IMG/VR virus record: IMGVR_UViG_3300028840_002104
Span: 1 to 64,000 of that record
From: a virus
Direction: 5' to 3' (one strand)
DNA length: 64,000 bases
How positions within the stretch are numbered: the stretch's first letter is position 1; the number at the start of each line of letters is the position of its first letter. This document shows positions 42,432 to 63,950 of the stretch, piece after piece. The position numbers and the translations under genes are program-made. Below the pieces are notes generated by a model, which worked only from the letters and a program-made list of their open reading frames with translations, did no database searches and had not been told where the DNA came from.

Positions 42432-42732
42432 GGAGACTCTTGAAGAGGAGCCCACGACGATCAGTGTCATTGTCAGATCCAGCAAAGGCGAAGAGAAGGT
42501 CCTGGAAGAAAAAGTGATCGAATACGTTTTGGTCACTGGCACGATTGATGGCAATCTGAAGAGCCATACCAACTTGGCGATTGCAGATAGGATCTTGTTC
42601 CTGCTGGAATTGGGCAAGACGATGCTAATCACGATACCCATGGTTCAGAAGATCTCAATGCCCGGGAAGAATAAGGTCGTGGTTCCTTCTAAGAGCGGCA
42701 TAATGAACTTTGTGCGGAGAGGCAAGAAGTAA
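42382..42732 (+). CDS. Small protein, unknown
   Basis: A 116-aa product from ATG 42382 (ACGGAGG 9 bases upstream), overlapping the Cys-rich gene by 50 bases. An acidic N-terminus, then a beta-rich segment (TISVIVRSSKGEEKVLEEKV) and a basic C-terminus (NFVRRGKK). Unknown. Confidence 0.5.
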   Translation: MMEKDPKIISLPTQSTEETLEEEPTTISVIVRSSKGEEKVLEEKVIEYVLVTGTIDGNLKSHTNLAIADRILFLLELGKTMLITIPMVQKISMPGKNKVVVPSKSGIMNFVRRGKK

Positions 42733-42742
42733 ATTGCTGGTT

Positions 42743-44584
42743 ATGAATGACCAAACGCTCCAAATGGTATGTCGGGATTTACTGAAAGAGCCAGCATTCG
42801 CAATCGACACAGAGACCTATGACCCATCAGTTACTCAGAACGCGCTTTCTTTACACAAAGCCAGGATACTGATGGTTTCGATCTGCTTTGGTGACTCTCC
42901 GTATAGAACGTATTCCATTCCCACGTCGGCGCAGTCGCCGGATTTTCTTCCAACATATGCCGTGGTAAACGCGCTTTCAAAGGTCCTAGAAGATCCTTCT
43001 GTGCTGAAAGTTATGTGGAATGCGAACTATGACGTCAATGTCTTTTTGAACCATGGCGTGAGAACTGTTCGCTACTGTTGTGGAATGGTCATGGCGTGGT
43101 GTCTGGATGAGAACAAGCCAAAAGGTCTGAAAGATCGAAGCGTTGAAGTTCATAGGCATTTGCGGAAGACAAAGAATGTTGACTTTGAGGATACCGACGA
43201 ACTAGCCATTTATGCTGAGCAAGACGCTAGAGCCACCTGGGATCTCTACCGTGCTTTTACGAAAGGCCAGATTGAGCTTTCTGAGGTTCCCAAGACAATG
43301 GTTTTGTCAGGAGTCAGAAAGAAGTTCTTTCACGAGCAAGAGATGCCTTTGGTAGATGTTGTGGTTTCCATGGAAAGACGTGGTATCCAGCTTGATGTGG
43401 ACGGCATTCGCAAGACGGCCAAGAAGATGGAGAAGCGTCTAGACGATCTTGAGGATAGGATCTACACCGAAGCAGGCCACGACTTCAACATTGGATCTGG
43501 CCCACAGCTTGCCGGTGTTCTCTTTGATGAACTAGACCTCCCTGTCTTGAGGCGGACAAAAAAGACCTCTAGACCTTCTGTGGATAAGATGACGCTCTCT
43601 CTTTTGAGAAACCATCATCCCATCGTTGACTTTGTTTTGGAGCATTCTGCTGTCAGGAAGCTCTACAGTACCTATGTTTGTCCTGAGAAGGATGGTCTAC
43701 CCTGCGGTCTTTTGGCTCATGCTGATATGGCAGGCGTTATTCATCCTACGATGAACACTGTGGGAGCTGTAACAGGCAGGTTCTCTGGGAGTCAGCCCAA
43801 TCCTCAGAACATTCCGAAAGACGCGGATAGAGATGAATGGAAGATAAGGTCTAAGTTTATAGCGCGGCCAGGTCATTCTCTGATAGTCGCGGATAAATCT
43901 CAGATTGAGCTTAGGCTGCTTACGGTTTTCTGTCGTGACCCCTTACTCATGAAGGTTTACCAAGAGGGCGGAGATGTTCACCAAACGACGGCTGACACTT
44001 GCCGAGTCATAAGAGACAAGGCCAAGGCGGTCAACTTTGGTGCTGTCTACGGGCTTCAGGCTCGAAGTTTAGCGGCAAATCTCACGTTCTATGGTACTCC
44101 TACTACGGAGGCTGAGGCTCAAGCTCTCTTGGATAGCTTCTTCAACAAGACCTACAAAAAGATAGACCCTTGGCGTAAGTCTTGGATTAAGCTTCACAAT
44201 GAGCGGGGTTTTGTTCCTCTGATTACAGGCAGGCCACGGCGCATTCCTGATCTTTTCTCAAGGAATAGGTTCAAGCGTAGCGTGGCAGAGCGTGAGCTGA
44301 TTAACAACACTATTCAGGGAAGTGCAGCAGATCTGATGAAACAGGCCATGCTTCGATGTCATTTTGACAGAGAGCTTCGAGAGCTGGAATGTTTCATGCT
44401 TATCCAGGTTCATGATGAATTGGTGTTTGAGGTTCCAACCGCGAATGCTGAAAAGGCGGCAAGAAGAGTTCGGGAGTTGATGTGCCAGCTTCCAGATGGC
44501 CTCATTTTGCCGATTGACATACCGATTGAAGTTAACGTGGCGATAGGCCCAAACTGGCGAGAAACGGAGAAATTGGCAGCATAG
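42743..44584 (+). CDS. DNA polymerase, family A, with 3'-5' exonuclease domain
   Basis: A 613-aa product from ATG 42743. Exo I AIDTET, Exo II NANYDVNVF and Exo III YAEQDARATW form a complete proofreading domain. The polymerase domain has motif A VADKSQIELRLL, motif B RDKAKAVNFGAVYG and motif C QVHDELVFE. Motif A carries Lys where Tyr is usual (DYSQIELR). Motif B keeps the Phe equivalent to E. coli F762. There is no 5'-3' exonuclease domain. The gene ends at a 16-bp sequence repeated 272 bases downstream. Confidence 0.92.
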   Translation: MNDQTLQMVCRDLLKEPAFAIDTETYDPSVTQNALSLHKARILMVSICFGDSPYRTYSIPTSAQSPDFLPTYAVVNALSKVLEDPSVLKVMWNANYDVNVFLNHGVRTVRYCCGMVMAWCLDENKPKGLKDRSVEVHRHLRKTKNVDFEDTDELAIYAEQDARATWDLYRAFTKGQIELSEVPKTMVLSGVRKKFFHEQEMPLVDVVVSMERRGIQLDVDGIRKTAKKMEKRLDDLEDRIYTEAGHDFNIGSGPQLAGVLFDELDLPVLRRTKKTSRPSVDKMTLSLLRNHHPIVDFVLEHSAVRKLYSTYVCPEKDGLPCGLLAHADMAGVIHPTMNTVGAVTGRFSGSQPNPQNIPKDADRDEWKIRSKFIARPGHSLIVADKSQIELRLLTVFCRDPLLMKVYQEGGDVHQTTADTCRVIRDKAKAVNFGAVYGLQARSLAANLTFYGTPTTEAEAQALLDSFFNKTYKKIDPWRKSWIKLHNERGFVPLITGRPRRIPDLFSRNRFKRSVAERELINNTIQGSAADLMKQAMLRCHFDRELRELECFMLIQVHDELVFEVPTANAEKAARRVRELMCQLPDGLILPIDIPIEVNVAIGPNWRETEKLAA

Positions 44585-44587
44585 GAG
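44572..44587 (+). repeat. 16-bp direct repeat, copy 1 (3' end of the polymerase gene)
   Basis: ATTGGCAGCATAGGAG, spanning the last codons and TAG stop of the polymerase gene. An identical copy is at 44844-44859. The two flank the 82-aa gene at 44594. Confidence 0.85.
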
Positions 44588-44593
44588 GATACT

Positions 44594-44842
44594 ATGGAAC
44601 GCACAAGAGAAGCGTCGGCACTAGAAGGGGAGTTGCGGCGAGAGCTTACTAGAATTAGAGGAGACCATGAGTCGGCTAAGATAGCCCTGGAGATTTTGGA
44701 AGAAGAGCCCACCCTAGTTGATGTTAGCTGCTACGAAAGTTTGGATCAAGCTCGAAGGGCAGTACTATTTCTTTCTAAGCGAGAGGAGAAGCTTGTACTG
44801 AGGCTTAAGGAGCTTGCAGACGAGAGTGAAATTGATAGCTAA
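44594..44842 (+). CDS. Small helical protein, unknown
   Basis: An 82-aa protein behind ATAGGAGGATACT. Charged, fully helical (LEGELRRELTRIRGDHESAK, LFLSKREEKLVLRLKELADE). It is the only gene between the two 16-bp direct repeats. Unknown role. Confidence 0.55.
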   Translation: MERTREASALEGELRRELTRIRGDHESAKIALEILEEEPTLVDVSCYESLDQARRAVLFLSKREEKLVLRLKELADESEIDS

Positions 44843-44843
44843 G

Positions 44844-44859
44844 ATTGGCAGCATAGGAG
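44844..44859 (+). repeat. 16-bp direct repeat, copy 2 (5' strand of the RNA closing helix)
   Basis: Identical to 44572-44587. Here it lies just after the stop of the 82-aa gene and forms the 5' strand of the long helix at 44846-45040. A near-exact inverted version is at 45023-45040. Confidence 0.85.
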
Positions 44860-45040
44860 AAAGGCCAGCACGTGCGGCAATGGAATGCAGTAATGGATTG
44901 GACCCGCTGTAATTCGAGTCCCTGTTGGATAAAGACCTTAGTCGCGAGAGGTGCTTTTCCAAGCAGACTTGTCATAAGTCGGAGATCTTAGTGTTCTGGC
45001 GTCAAATCTAGCAAGATGTGCTTTTCTCCTACTGCTGCCA
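44846..45040 (+). ncRNA. Candidate structured RNA, multibranched with a long closing helix
   Basis: A 215-bp gap with no gene. Its ends pair: TGGCAGCA with TGCTGCCA, then TAGGAGAAA with TTTCTCCTA (one bulged C), and GCAC (44868-44871) with GTGC (45018-45021). Inside, consecutive hairpins fit without overlap: 44900-44921 (GGAC/GTCC with inner CG/CG), 44925-44962 (TTGGA/TCCAA enclosing ACCT/AGGT), 44966-44980 (GACTT/AAGTC) and 44985-45017 (ATCTT/AAGAT). No tRNA, tmRNA or 6S RNA pattern could be confirmed, although TTCGAGTCC recalls a tRNA T-arm. Confidence 0.5.
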
Positions 45041-45057
45041 TTTGAAAGGATGAAGAT

Positions 45058-45291
45058 ATGCTTGAGAACATGAGTCCTGATGTTCGGCATTTTATTACGC
45101 CTCTTCTAGGTTATGGCGGAGGAAGACCTAGTTGTAGAACTTGTGCTTTTTGTGACGATGTTCAGGATACGCCAGGGCCTAACGGAGAGCCCGCTTTAGC
45201 TTGTTTTATTGTGTCAGAAGCGTTAGGTGTTTTTGCGACGGGGGCAGACAACTACTGCCAGAGATGGAAGGCTGTTCCAGAGACACCTTAG
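45058..45291 (+). CDS. Small CxxCxxC protein, unknown
   Basis: A 77-aa protein, AAAGGATGAAGAT before ATG. Contains CRTCAFC and two later Cys (ALACFIV, NYCQRW), giving five to six possible metal ligands. Could bind zinc or an Fe-S cluster. No family recognised. Confidence 0.55.
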   Translation: MLENMSPDVRHFITPLLGYGGGRPSCRTCAFCDDVQDTPGPNGEPALACFIVSEALGVFATGADNYCQRWKAVPETP

Positions 45292-55382: not shown

Positions 55383-56013
55383 GCGGCTGAAGATTAACGA
55401 CATCTTTCTGAGTATTCAAGGAGAAGGTCAGTATGTGGGGACTCCGATGGTCTTCATCAGATTCGCAGGATGCAATCTTTCCTGTAGCTGGTGTGATACG
55501 GACAAGTATGAGCACTACTGCATGACAGCGGAGCAGGTCTTTAACTATATCAAGACTCTTTGTAACTATCCTAGTTCTATTCCTGTCTGTCTTACAGGAG
55601 GGGAGCCTCTTCTTCAATGGGGATTGGCAATGGAAGAGCTTGCCAACAGGCTTATAGAGAAAGGCTCAGGACTTCATCTTGAGACGAACGGTCTTCTGCT
55701 CGACGGAGAGATTGGTCTAGGTGTTTTTGACTATGTTACGGTTAGTCCTAAGCCCCCCTCTTCAGGCTGCGAAACTCTTGACTACTGGGATAGCTTAGCT
55801 CTCTCTCGCGCTGATGAGTTTAAGGTTGTGATAGCAGATCAGGAGGACTACAATTGGGTTGTTCAGAATGCTTGCTGGTTTGTTGATCGTCCCCTTTTTC
55901 TCCAGCCTTGTGACGGAAGGTCTTCTTTCTCTGATCTCTGGGAGATGTGGCAGAAGAACCCTATCCCCTGTCGGATACTTCCTCAAGTCCACAAGCTCGT
56001 GGGCGTCAAGTAA
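55375..56013 (+). CDS. queE: 7-carboxy-7-deazaguanine synthase QueE (radical SAM)
   Basis: A 212-aa radical SAM enzyme for the third preQ0 step. DIFLSIQGEGQYVGTPMVFI and CNLSCSWCDTD (the QueE-type CxxxCxxC) bind the 4Fe-4S cluster. CLTGGEPLLQ is the SAM GGEP motif, followed by LETNGLL and VSPKPPSSG. ATG overlaps queD by eight bases. The last gene before a promoter region, so queC-folE-queD-queE look like one operon. Confidence 0.92.
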   Translation: MSERLKINDIFLSIQGEGQYVGTPMVFIRFAGCNLSCSWCDTDKYEHYCMTAEQVFNYIKTLCNYPSSIPVCLTGGEPLLQWGLAMEELANRLIEKGSGLHLETNGLLLDGEIGLGVFDYVTVSPKPPSSGCETLDYWDSLALSRADEFKVVIADQEDYNWVVQNACWFVDRPLFLQPCDGRSSFSDLWEMWQKNPIPCRILPQVHKLVGVK

Positions 56014-58052: not shown

Positions 58053-58075
58053 ATTTTCTGGCTGACCGTGGCCAC

Positions 58076-58109
58076 GAGGAGGAAGTCTCTCTTTTGGGGC
58101 TTCCTCCTC
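58076..58109 (+). terminator. Hairpin after the acidic-repeat gene, terminator candidate
   Basis: GAGGAGGAAG / CTTCCTCCTC, perfect 10-bp arms with a 14-base loop, 24 bases after the stop. No T-run follows (ACCCCCTAAAAG), so termination is unproven. It marks the start of a 430-bp noncoding stretch. Confidence 0.45.
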
Positions 58110-58149
58110 ACCCCCTAAAAGTTATGCTCAGAGTTATTGCATTTGTTCA

Positions 58150-58465
58150 TAAGGGGTTGGGCTTGGCGTGTTGAGGTTGGTTTCGTTCAGGCACGTTTAG
58201 GTTGGTTACGGCTAGGTCTGGTTAGGTTGGCCATGGCGTGGAAAGGTTAGGTTGGCTGTGGTTTGGTAGTGCAGGGTTTGGTCCCTAGTGGGGTCTGTTG
58301 GGTTCAGTTTTGGTTAGGTCTGTTGGGTTGAGGTATGTTCAGTTCTGGCCGGTCATGGCGCGTTGAGTTGCGGTTTGTTTCGTTAAGGCGGGGCGAGCTT
58401 AGGTGTGGTTTGTTTTGGTCCGGTAGGGTCGGTTTGGGTTGGTTGGGTTAAGGTTTGGTATGTCT
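58150..58465. repeat. G/T-rich repetitive noncoding tract
   Basis: About 310 bp in which the + strand is roughly 75-80% G+T in the two lines counted. Dense short repeats of GGTT-type words: TTAGGTTGG three times (about 58198, 58222, 58246), GGTCTGTTGGGTT twice 25 bases apart (58292, 58317), many GGTTTGG/GGTTGGG. No ORF of note. Resembles telomere-like or G-quadruplex-prone DNA; could be an origin, packaging or recombination site. Confidence 0.75.
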
Positions 58466-58484
58466 ACTTGAAAGGATGTGAGTT

Positions 58485-59752: not shown

Positions 59753-61054
59753 TTGCCTAGAATCTTCTATGCGGGAACTGATGAAGATGAATTCTACAAC
59801 CTATCATGCGAGCAAGGCGTTGATGCACAGCTTGTCTCTTTCTACAAAATGCGGAAATGGCCTGCCCTACTCCGCAAGCGGAAAGAAGAGCATCCAGAGG
59901 TAGACTTCTTTGTTGATTCGGGGGCCTACACGTTTCAGCGAGAAAAGGGTCAAGAGCTTACCCTTGATGATTACGAGCTTTACGCGGAAGAGTACACCAA
60001 GTATCTAGAGACAAACATTGACTGTATATTTGCTGCGGCAGAGCTGGATGTTGAACAGGTTGTAGGGCTGGAGAGAGTGTATAGATGGCAGCGGGAATTG
60101 TTTGCTCCTCTTGAGGATCGCATCCCCATTGTGTATGTCTGGCATCCTTTTCGCGGTCCAGATGGCTGGACAGAGATGTGCAAGCAGCATGAGTATGTGG
60201 GCTTCTCCCGCGACGTCTCGCATGAAGAGCGCGTGAGACTGCTTGCCACAGCGCGGAAATATCTGACCAAGGTCCATGGCTTTGGTATCACTGACTCCAC
60301 CTCTCTGAGAACGCTGAATTGCTATTCCGTGGACTCTCTGACGTGGAAGACTTGTGAGATGTATGGCACTACCTACTATTGGGACGGTTCTACGCTGAAG
60401 GTCTTCGATAAGACGCAGAAAGATCAGAGGCGCAGGTTCAGAGGCCAGTTTGAGACTCTAGGACTTGACTGGGCGGCCATTGAGAATGATGAAAGGCGAG
60501 AGATCACTAGAGCTTCCCTGATGGCCTTTCGTCTCATGGAATTCGCGATGGAGAGGCGGGCGGTCATGGTCCCCTTCTGGGAGTATCGAGTCCCTCCAAG
60601 AGAGCTGAGCCCTGAAGACATCTCGAAGTGGGCAGAGAAGTTTGGCTGGAAGAATGCTGAGTTTGATGATTCTGAAGAGGACAAGTTCTATGTGAGTCTT
60701 GTCCAGGCTGTGCAGAACAACTGGGGACTTGAAGACTATGATCCAGAGGATCTGGCAGAAGGTCTTGGCTGGCTTCTGAAGAGTCACGGGAAAGTCACGA
60801 GTGATCCTCACGACGCGGCGATTTATGACAAGATTCGGGTGAAGATGAATGATTGCTTGGTGCCGAAGAAGACATTCGCGGTGCCGAGGACTTCAAATGA
60901 GGTATTTCTAGACAGGTTCCCAAAGCCTAGAGCAAGGTCTTTAGAACCTACTGACTACAATACTTTGGACTGGCGAGAAGTGGATAAGAACATGGCTGCG
61001 GCGCTAGATGCAGGTGTCCGCGAAACGATGGAGGATTCTGATGGGCTTTTCTGA
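59753..61054 (+). CDS. dpdA: DNA guanine transglycosylase, DpdA-type
   Basis: A 433-aa product from TTG 59753, six bases after AGGAGG; upstream frame is shadow. TGT-fold landmarks: FFVDSGAYTF (Asp55, cf. DSGGFQ of tRNA-guanine transglycosylases), VHGFGITDSTSLRTLNCYSV then D194-S (the second catalytic Asp position), and WHPFRGPDG. DpdA proteins swap guanine in DNA for a 7-deazaguanine supplied by the que genes. No zinc motif of tRNA TGTs is seen, as expected for DpdA. Confidence 0.8.
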   Translation: MPRIFYAGTDEDEFYNLSCEQGVDAQLVSFYKMRKWPALLRKRKEEHPEVDFFVDSGAYTFQREKGQELTLDDYELYAEEYTKYLETNIDCIFAAAELDVEQVVGLERVYRWQRELFAPLEDRIPIVYVWHPFRGPDGWTEMCKQHEYVGFSRDVSHEERVRLLATARKYLTKVHGFGITDSTSLRTLNCYSVDSLTWKTCEMYGTTYYWDGSTLKVFDKTQKDQRRRFRGQFETLGLDWAAIENDERREITRASLMAFRLMEFAMERRAVMVPFWEYRVPPRELSPEDISKWAEKFGWKNAEFDDSEEDKFYVSLVQAVQNNWGLEDYDPEDLAEGLGWLLKSHGKVTSDPHDAAIYDKIRVKMNDCLVPKKTFAVPRTSNEVFLDRFPKPRARSLEPTDYNTLDWREVDKNMAAALDAGVRETMEDSDGLF

Positions 61055-63766: not shown

Positions 63767-63770
63767 TGGC

Positions 63771-63930
63771 CTGTGGCTGGCCTGTGTCAGGCCCTGGCAG
63801 GCCCTGTGGCCTGTGGCTGGCCTGTGTCAGGCCCTGGCAGGCCCTGTGGCCTGTGGCTGGCCTGTGTCAGGCCCTGGCAGGCCCTGTGGCCTGTGGCTGG
63901 CCTGTGTCAGGCCCTGGCAGGCCCTGTGGC
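63771..63930. repeat. Four perfect 40-bp tandem repeats, noncoding
   Basis: Copies at 63771-63810, 63811-63850, 63851-63890 and 63891-63930 are identical. Each is GC-rich, made of GGCCTG/CAGGCC-type inverted words (CTGTGGCTGGCCTGTGTCAG, then GCCCTGGCAGGCCCTGTGGC). The 40-bp period is not a multiple of three, so no protein frame is kept. Partial flanks continue for 3 bases before and 6 after. Possible iteron-like, packaging or recombination site. Confidence 0.9.
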
Positions 63931-63934
63931 CTGT

Positions 63935-63950
63935 GGTTACTCTTGTAACC
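63935..63950. repeat. Short hairpin after the repeats
   Basis: GGTTAC-TCTT-GTAACC, 6-bp perfect stem immediately downstream of the tandem array. The remaining bases to 64000 hold no recognisable gene. Confidence 0.6.

Follow-up and report, generated by a model that had tools for sequence, protein, structure and literature searches.

The intergenic stretch at 44843–45057 of the window (which covers bases 1–64,000 of a virus record of 85,818 bases) is spanned, in predicted folds of the plus strand, by a closing helix of 20 pairs, which we take on this modelling to be real and probably selected, although its margin over chance is not overwhelming when the entire genome is taken into account. In the modelled structure the element is a long helix around largely unremarkable sequence, rather than a demonstrated complex noncoding RNA. 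The reading we favour, tentatively and at somewhat under an even chance, is that of an ORF-less intercistronic closing helix in a plus-strand polycistronic mRNA, which would act as an RNase III-type processing element or as an insulating element. Taken alone, the gap element would be just another candidate for an intercistronic RNA structure; what makes it useful is the pattern that it brought to light, six unit-enclosing helices in the early region of the same genome.

The gap and its neighbouring genes

On the plus strand, the gene order is a family A DNA polymerase (42734–44584; Pfam PF00476, E = 3.6e-95, in the frame 42710–44581), an 82-aa ORF (44594–44842), the gap, and a 77-aa Cys-rich ORF (45058–45291), the gene calls being mechanical and made in this analysis. 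The 215 bases of the gap are thus those that follow the 82-aa ORF, whose stop is at 44842, and precede the 77-aa ORF, whose start is at 45058. Neither of the two small ORFs has a family match in Pfam or PHROGs, and both have gene-like codon statistics, while those of the gap are off-frame-like; the first-pass annotation had described the gap as carrying no gene, and the codon scores agree with it, being non-coding in all six frames. A hidden small gene was considered and rejected: a 39-codon frame at 44872–44991 is open, yet its codon score is non-coding. The accompanying description of a genome with almost no gaps holds only approximately, as the whole record contains 24 gaps of 100 nt or more. 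The record begins and ends with an identical 144-bp direct repeat (1–144 and 85675–85818), and on this evidence we take the genome to be probably complete, with a length of about 85.7 kb.

The closing helix

The closing helix pairs 44846–44865 (the 5′ arm, “A”) with 45020–45040 (the 3′ arm, “C”), both on the plus strand, with predicted pair probabilities of 0.77–1.0. It consists of an outer part of 8 bp (44846–44853/45033–45040) and an inner part of 12 bp (44854–44865/45020–45031), with a bulged C at 45032; the only non-Watson–Crick pair, 44863–45022 in the inner part, is G-U on the mRNA strand, and there is no A-C pair. The helix fits the gap closely: arm A begins 3 nt beyond the 82-aa stop codon, and arm C ends just before the Shine–Dalgarno sequence of the 77-aa ORF (AAAGGA, 45045–45050), which lies outside the helix. 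With 20 pairs and one bulge, it provides the roughly two turns of double-stranded RNA that characterise an RNase III signal.

A closing helix of 20 bp had already been proposed from the letters alone, and it stands up well against shuffled controls: not one of 3000 dinucleotide shuffles of the gap matched the energy of the terminal duplex, and under a looser helix definition a single shuffle in 400 reached it. Ranked by terminal helix, the gap comes first among the 26 gaps tested. At spacings of 100–260 nt, the closing helix is the strongest in the whole 85.8-kb record, and only two of 4281 tiled 214-nt windows reach its energy, one being the element itself and the other lying at about 8901. 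A helix stronger than that of the element was given by one of eight shuffled genomes, and the statistical support, with the whole genome counted, is moderate. An unconstrained fold of 2 kb of the mRNA recovers the helix whole, folding energies over hundreds of bases being rough.

The enclosed sequence

The sequence inside the helix (44866–45019, plus strand) is non-coding and folds no better than its shuffles: the 154 bases alone give −36.5 kcal/mol against a shuffle mean of −41.0 kcal/mol, with 88% of shuffles equal or better. The only inner hairpin predicted firmly is at 44926–44961 (pair probabilities 0.69–0.98), so that the four consecutive hairpins drawn in the first-pass annotation are not recovered. 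The 3′ side of this hairpin (44944–44959) and a segment on the side of arm C (45011–45026) share 14 of 16 bases, and alternative pairings are therefore possible.

The element as a whole does fold better than shuffles, with z-scores of −2.4 for the plus and −4.2 for the minus strand, and it does so because of the closing helix. The minus-strand fold is itself the weaker (−65.5 against −71 kcal/mol); its better z-score arises because the shuffles are weaker there (mean −48.6 against −60.2 kcal/mol). Comparison with shuffled sequence, which had been suggested as a check, thus gives a split answer, favourable to the whole element and unfavourable to its interior. Structure at the RNA level, as originally suspected, is supported in the form of the closing helix, while a multi-hairpin structured RNA, an aptamer or a decoy finds no support in an interior no better than random. 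Since the interior is unstructured, the helix itself is the feature.

Searches for relatives

Rfam 15, whose families include those of tRNA, tmRNA, 6S, riboswitches and introns, gave no match when the window was searched at gathering thresholds, nor at E ≤ 10 over 44560–45080; the impression by eye that nothing here resembles tRNA, tmRNA, 6S or common riboswitches survives even the permissive search. The DNA of the element gave short chance matches only against phages and plasmids and no convincing match in viral and genome contigs, these being searches from which very near records may be left out. A covariance model built from the single sequence recovered the element itself plus chance-level matches. 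One DNA pattern of the two arms hit one contig, by chance, and a second pattern hit none. The neighbouring proteins are similarly isolated: the 82-aa ORF, the 77-aa ORF, the recombinase and the major capsid protein have no relatives in the viral contigs, the 77-aa ORF has none in annotated phages, and the relatives of the polymerase are distant only (~24–35% identity).

These results bear on whether the element could be a small RNA, stable once cut out of the transcript, that acts in trans on host or phage targets. Its closed architecture resembles that of RNAs freed by the cutting of leader–trailer helices (PMC10250234), but with an interior no better than shuffles, no Rfam match, no relative, and no promoter on either strand in a consensus scan, we consider such an RNA improbable.

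Still less probable is a mobile-element remnant, or a non-autonomous copy with terminal inverted repeats. Inverted ends of some 20 bp on either side of 155 nt would suit such an origin, but the 196-bp unit lacks a flanking target duplication, the element is present in a single copy in the record, no convincing match to it turned up among the phages, plasmids, viral contigs and genome contigs searched, and the record has no reverse transcriptase (no match to PF00078). A 16-nt repeat does occur 272 bp upstream; it lies inside the sequence of arm A and is not a target duplication of the 196-bp unit. A retron noncoding RNA was rejected for want of a PF00078 match in the record.

An inverted repeat is of course present in the DNA too, and this one adjoins a polymerase gene, so a DNA element of the replication module, such as a replication origin or a protein-binding site, was also weighed. 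We regard it as very unlikely, the arms being 155 nt apart and no A+T-rich stretch, skew turn or iterons having been found.

A repeated segment and an alternative pairing

The 16 bases ATTGGCAGCATAGGAG at 44844–44859 recur exactly at 44572–44587 (“B”), where they overlie the polymerase stop codon and the Shine–Dalgarno sequence of the 82-aa ORF. Arm C, which is unique within the window, could because of this copy pair with either A or B; it is in other words complementary, via B, to the Shine–Dalgarno region of the 82-aa ORF, with the pairing of A to C competing and usually winning. As isolated duplexes, A with C gives −35.4 kcal/mol and B with C −26.3 kcal/mol. In a 516-nt fold, pairing of B with C is favoured by 2.5 kcal/mol, and pairing of A with C by 4 kcal/mol when the 82-aa ORF is held open; in the remaining fold windows tried, A with C wins.

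The arrangement could be a translational switch, in which arm C pairs over a long range either with A or with B across the Shine–Dalgarno sequence of the 82-aa ORF; pairing with B would shut the ORF off, and A, competing for C, would keep it open. We consider such a switch rather unlikely. The exact 16-nt copy, the anti-Shine–Dalgarno-like UCUCCU in arm C, and the 516-nt fold, where B with C is the minimum-energy choice and A with C lies within 3 kcal/mol, all speak for a switch; the A–C arm duplex, which is 9 kcal/mol stronger and wins both in other windows and with the ORF open, speaks against it, and copy B may be a mere duplicated ribosome-binding segment. There is a precedent in the icaR mRNA of S. 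aureus, whose 3′-UTR pairs with the Shine–Dalgarno region and is cut there by RNase III (PMC3868564). Both cases set a pyrimidine-rich 3′ sequence against the Shine–Dalgarno region of the same mRNA, but here arm C has a second and stronger partner in arm A, and regulation is putative; by analogy, the pairing of B with C could regulate translation in the manner of icaR.

The same repeats could have arisen by neutral rearrangement, with the end of the polymerase gene and the ribosome-binding site copied directly (A) and inverted (C) by template switching and the gap left as functionless filler. Three copies of one sequence in 470 nt, two direct and one inverted, are what such copying would leave, and an unstructured, non-coding interior is consistent with filler. 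Yet filler is rare in this genome, which is compact, the helix covers the gap exactly, its lone non-Watson–Crick pair is G-U and not A-C on the mRNA strand, and six selected-looking helices occur elsewhere in the genome (see below); we therefore think this origin doubtful, at about one chance in a handful.

Six unit-enclosing helices in the early region

Beyond the window, at 64467–68322 of the record, lie six consecutive early units, each inside its own helix of 26–31 positions. The enclosed units are 64508–64894, 64984–65739, 65844–66557, 66669–67323 (two genes), 67413–67742, and 67826–68284. In each, the 5′ arm precedes the ribosome-binding site, the 3′ arm comes just past the stop, and the arm sequences differ from unit to unit. 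A ribosome-binding segment close to GGAGGTTTGGTCATG is common to the early genes at 64508, 64984, 66669, 67413, and 67826.

In a self-comparison of the record that set aside the tandem-repeat array at ~63.8 kb, the early helices take the top six places among inverted repeats within 3 kb (41–45 bits, the next best scoring 28), and they are the six strongest among the gap pairs tested. All six reappear in an unconstrained fold of the 3.9-kb early RNA. More telling is the nature of their irregularities: all seven mismatches are C-U, and the five other non-Watson–Crick pairs are all G-U, with no A-C. Were the repeats kept as DNA, A-C and G-U should occur equally often on this strand; the probability of five G-U to zero A-C by chance is 0.03, or 0.016 on adding the G-U of the gap element. 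The presence of G-U without A-C points to selection on the plus-strand RNA, as judged from the sequences of the helices, and this series is stronger evidence of selection than the gap element. No such helix series was seen in ~1.19 Mb of sequence from elsewhere, most of it from phage loci surrounding DNA polymerase genes.

The gap element resembles the early helices in being a long helix with an unpaired pyrimidine and G-U wobbles only, and in having arms that adjoin stop codons and ribosome-binding sites. It differs in length (20 pairs against 25–30), in having a bulged C where they have central C-U mismatches, and in that arms A and C enclose non-coding sequence whereas the early helices enclose one or two genes; only the weaker pairing of B with C would enclose a gene, the 82-aa ORF. 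Of the features that define the early series, the gap element thus shows the G-U pairs without A-C, and lacks both the length of at least 26 positions with a central C-U mismatch and the enclosed gene or genes. Because these two strict criteria fail, we do not file it as a member of the series; the likenesses are suggestive of kinship.

One possible, though rather less probable, generalisation is that the phage divides its polycistronic mRNA into closed units, each with its own long helix marked by a central C-U mismatch or an unpaired pyrimidine, the gap element being an ORF-less unit that would release an RNA of ~180 nt or separate two messages. If the early helices are cut, or keep mRNA ends together, this would amount to a unit-by-unit scheme of mRNA processing or packaging in a phage. 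No description of such unit-by-unit enclosure was found in the open-licence literature, which is weak evidence of novelty.

A proposed processing or insulating signal

In the reading favoured here, the helix would be a signal recognised as double-stranded RNA, for processing or for insulation, and host RNase III is the simplest candidate to act on it. The host enzyme is assumed because no match to RNase III or to a dsRBD was found among the products of the phage. Cleavage would part the message for the polymerase and the 82-aa ORF from that for the 77-aa ORF and the recombinase, and what is left of the helix could protect the new mRNA ends. The gap element would also be a shorter, ORF-less relative of the six early unit-enclosing helices.

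In phage T7, host RNase III cuts the early mRNA at five sites, which yields mono- and dicistronic mRNAs (PMC4858673). Both the T7 early signals (e.g., R1.1) and the gap element are stretches of double-stranded RNA between cistrons of a phage polycistronic mRNA, and both have a defect in the helix. The RNase III signals of T7 are compact local hairpins of ~60 nt. The arms of the gap element, unlike these, are 155 nt apart, and RNase III cleavage is here only a prediction. A geometric parallel is bacterial pre-rRNA, in which complementary flanks form a long closing helix in a longer transcript (PMC10250234). Leader–trailer helices and the gap element share this geometry of complementary flanks around an RNA unit, but the former enclose highly structured rRNA and the latter poorly structured non-coding sequence.

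Inverted repeats together with conserved ribosome-binding segments are also known from the SAS/ESAS elements of cluster K mycobacteriophages, which occupy the intergenic gaps of many genes (PMC3203893). The ESAS repeats have a shared consensus, are mostly 4–13 bp apart, and lie upstream of one gene (PMC3203893). The likeness to the gap element extends to inverted repeats and ribosome-binding segments in phage intergenic gaps; membership was rejected, as the arms here are 155 nt apart and unique in sequence, against local repeats of shared consensus.

Other features of the record

Several further features of the record were seen in passing. A 304-nt gap at 68285–68588 is a candidate small RNA, with a TTGACA-type promoter-like sequence (by eye), a GGGTGTA…TACACCC stem, and a terminator-like hairpin followed by a T run. 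Within the window, in the 432-nt gap at 58053–58484, a strong hairpin is followed by G/T-rich repeats, for example GGTTAGGTTGG, and the plus-strand fold of the gap is unusually stable. A tandem repeat with a 40-bp unit lies at 63767–63936, close to where the final ORF ahead of the early region ends. Matches to a QueE-like radical SAM protein (55435–56010) and a queuine tRNA-ribosyltransferase (59753–61051) denote genes for queuosine-type modification, and the early region encodes, at 68920–69924 of the record, an ArdC-like anti-restriction protein with a zincin-like domain.
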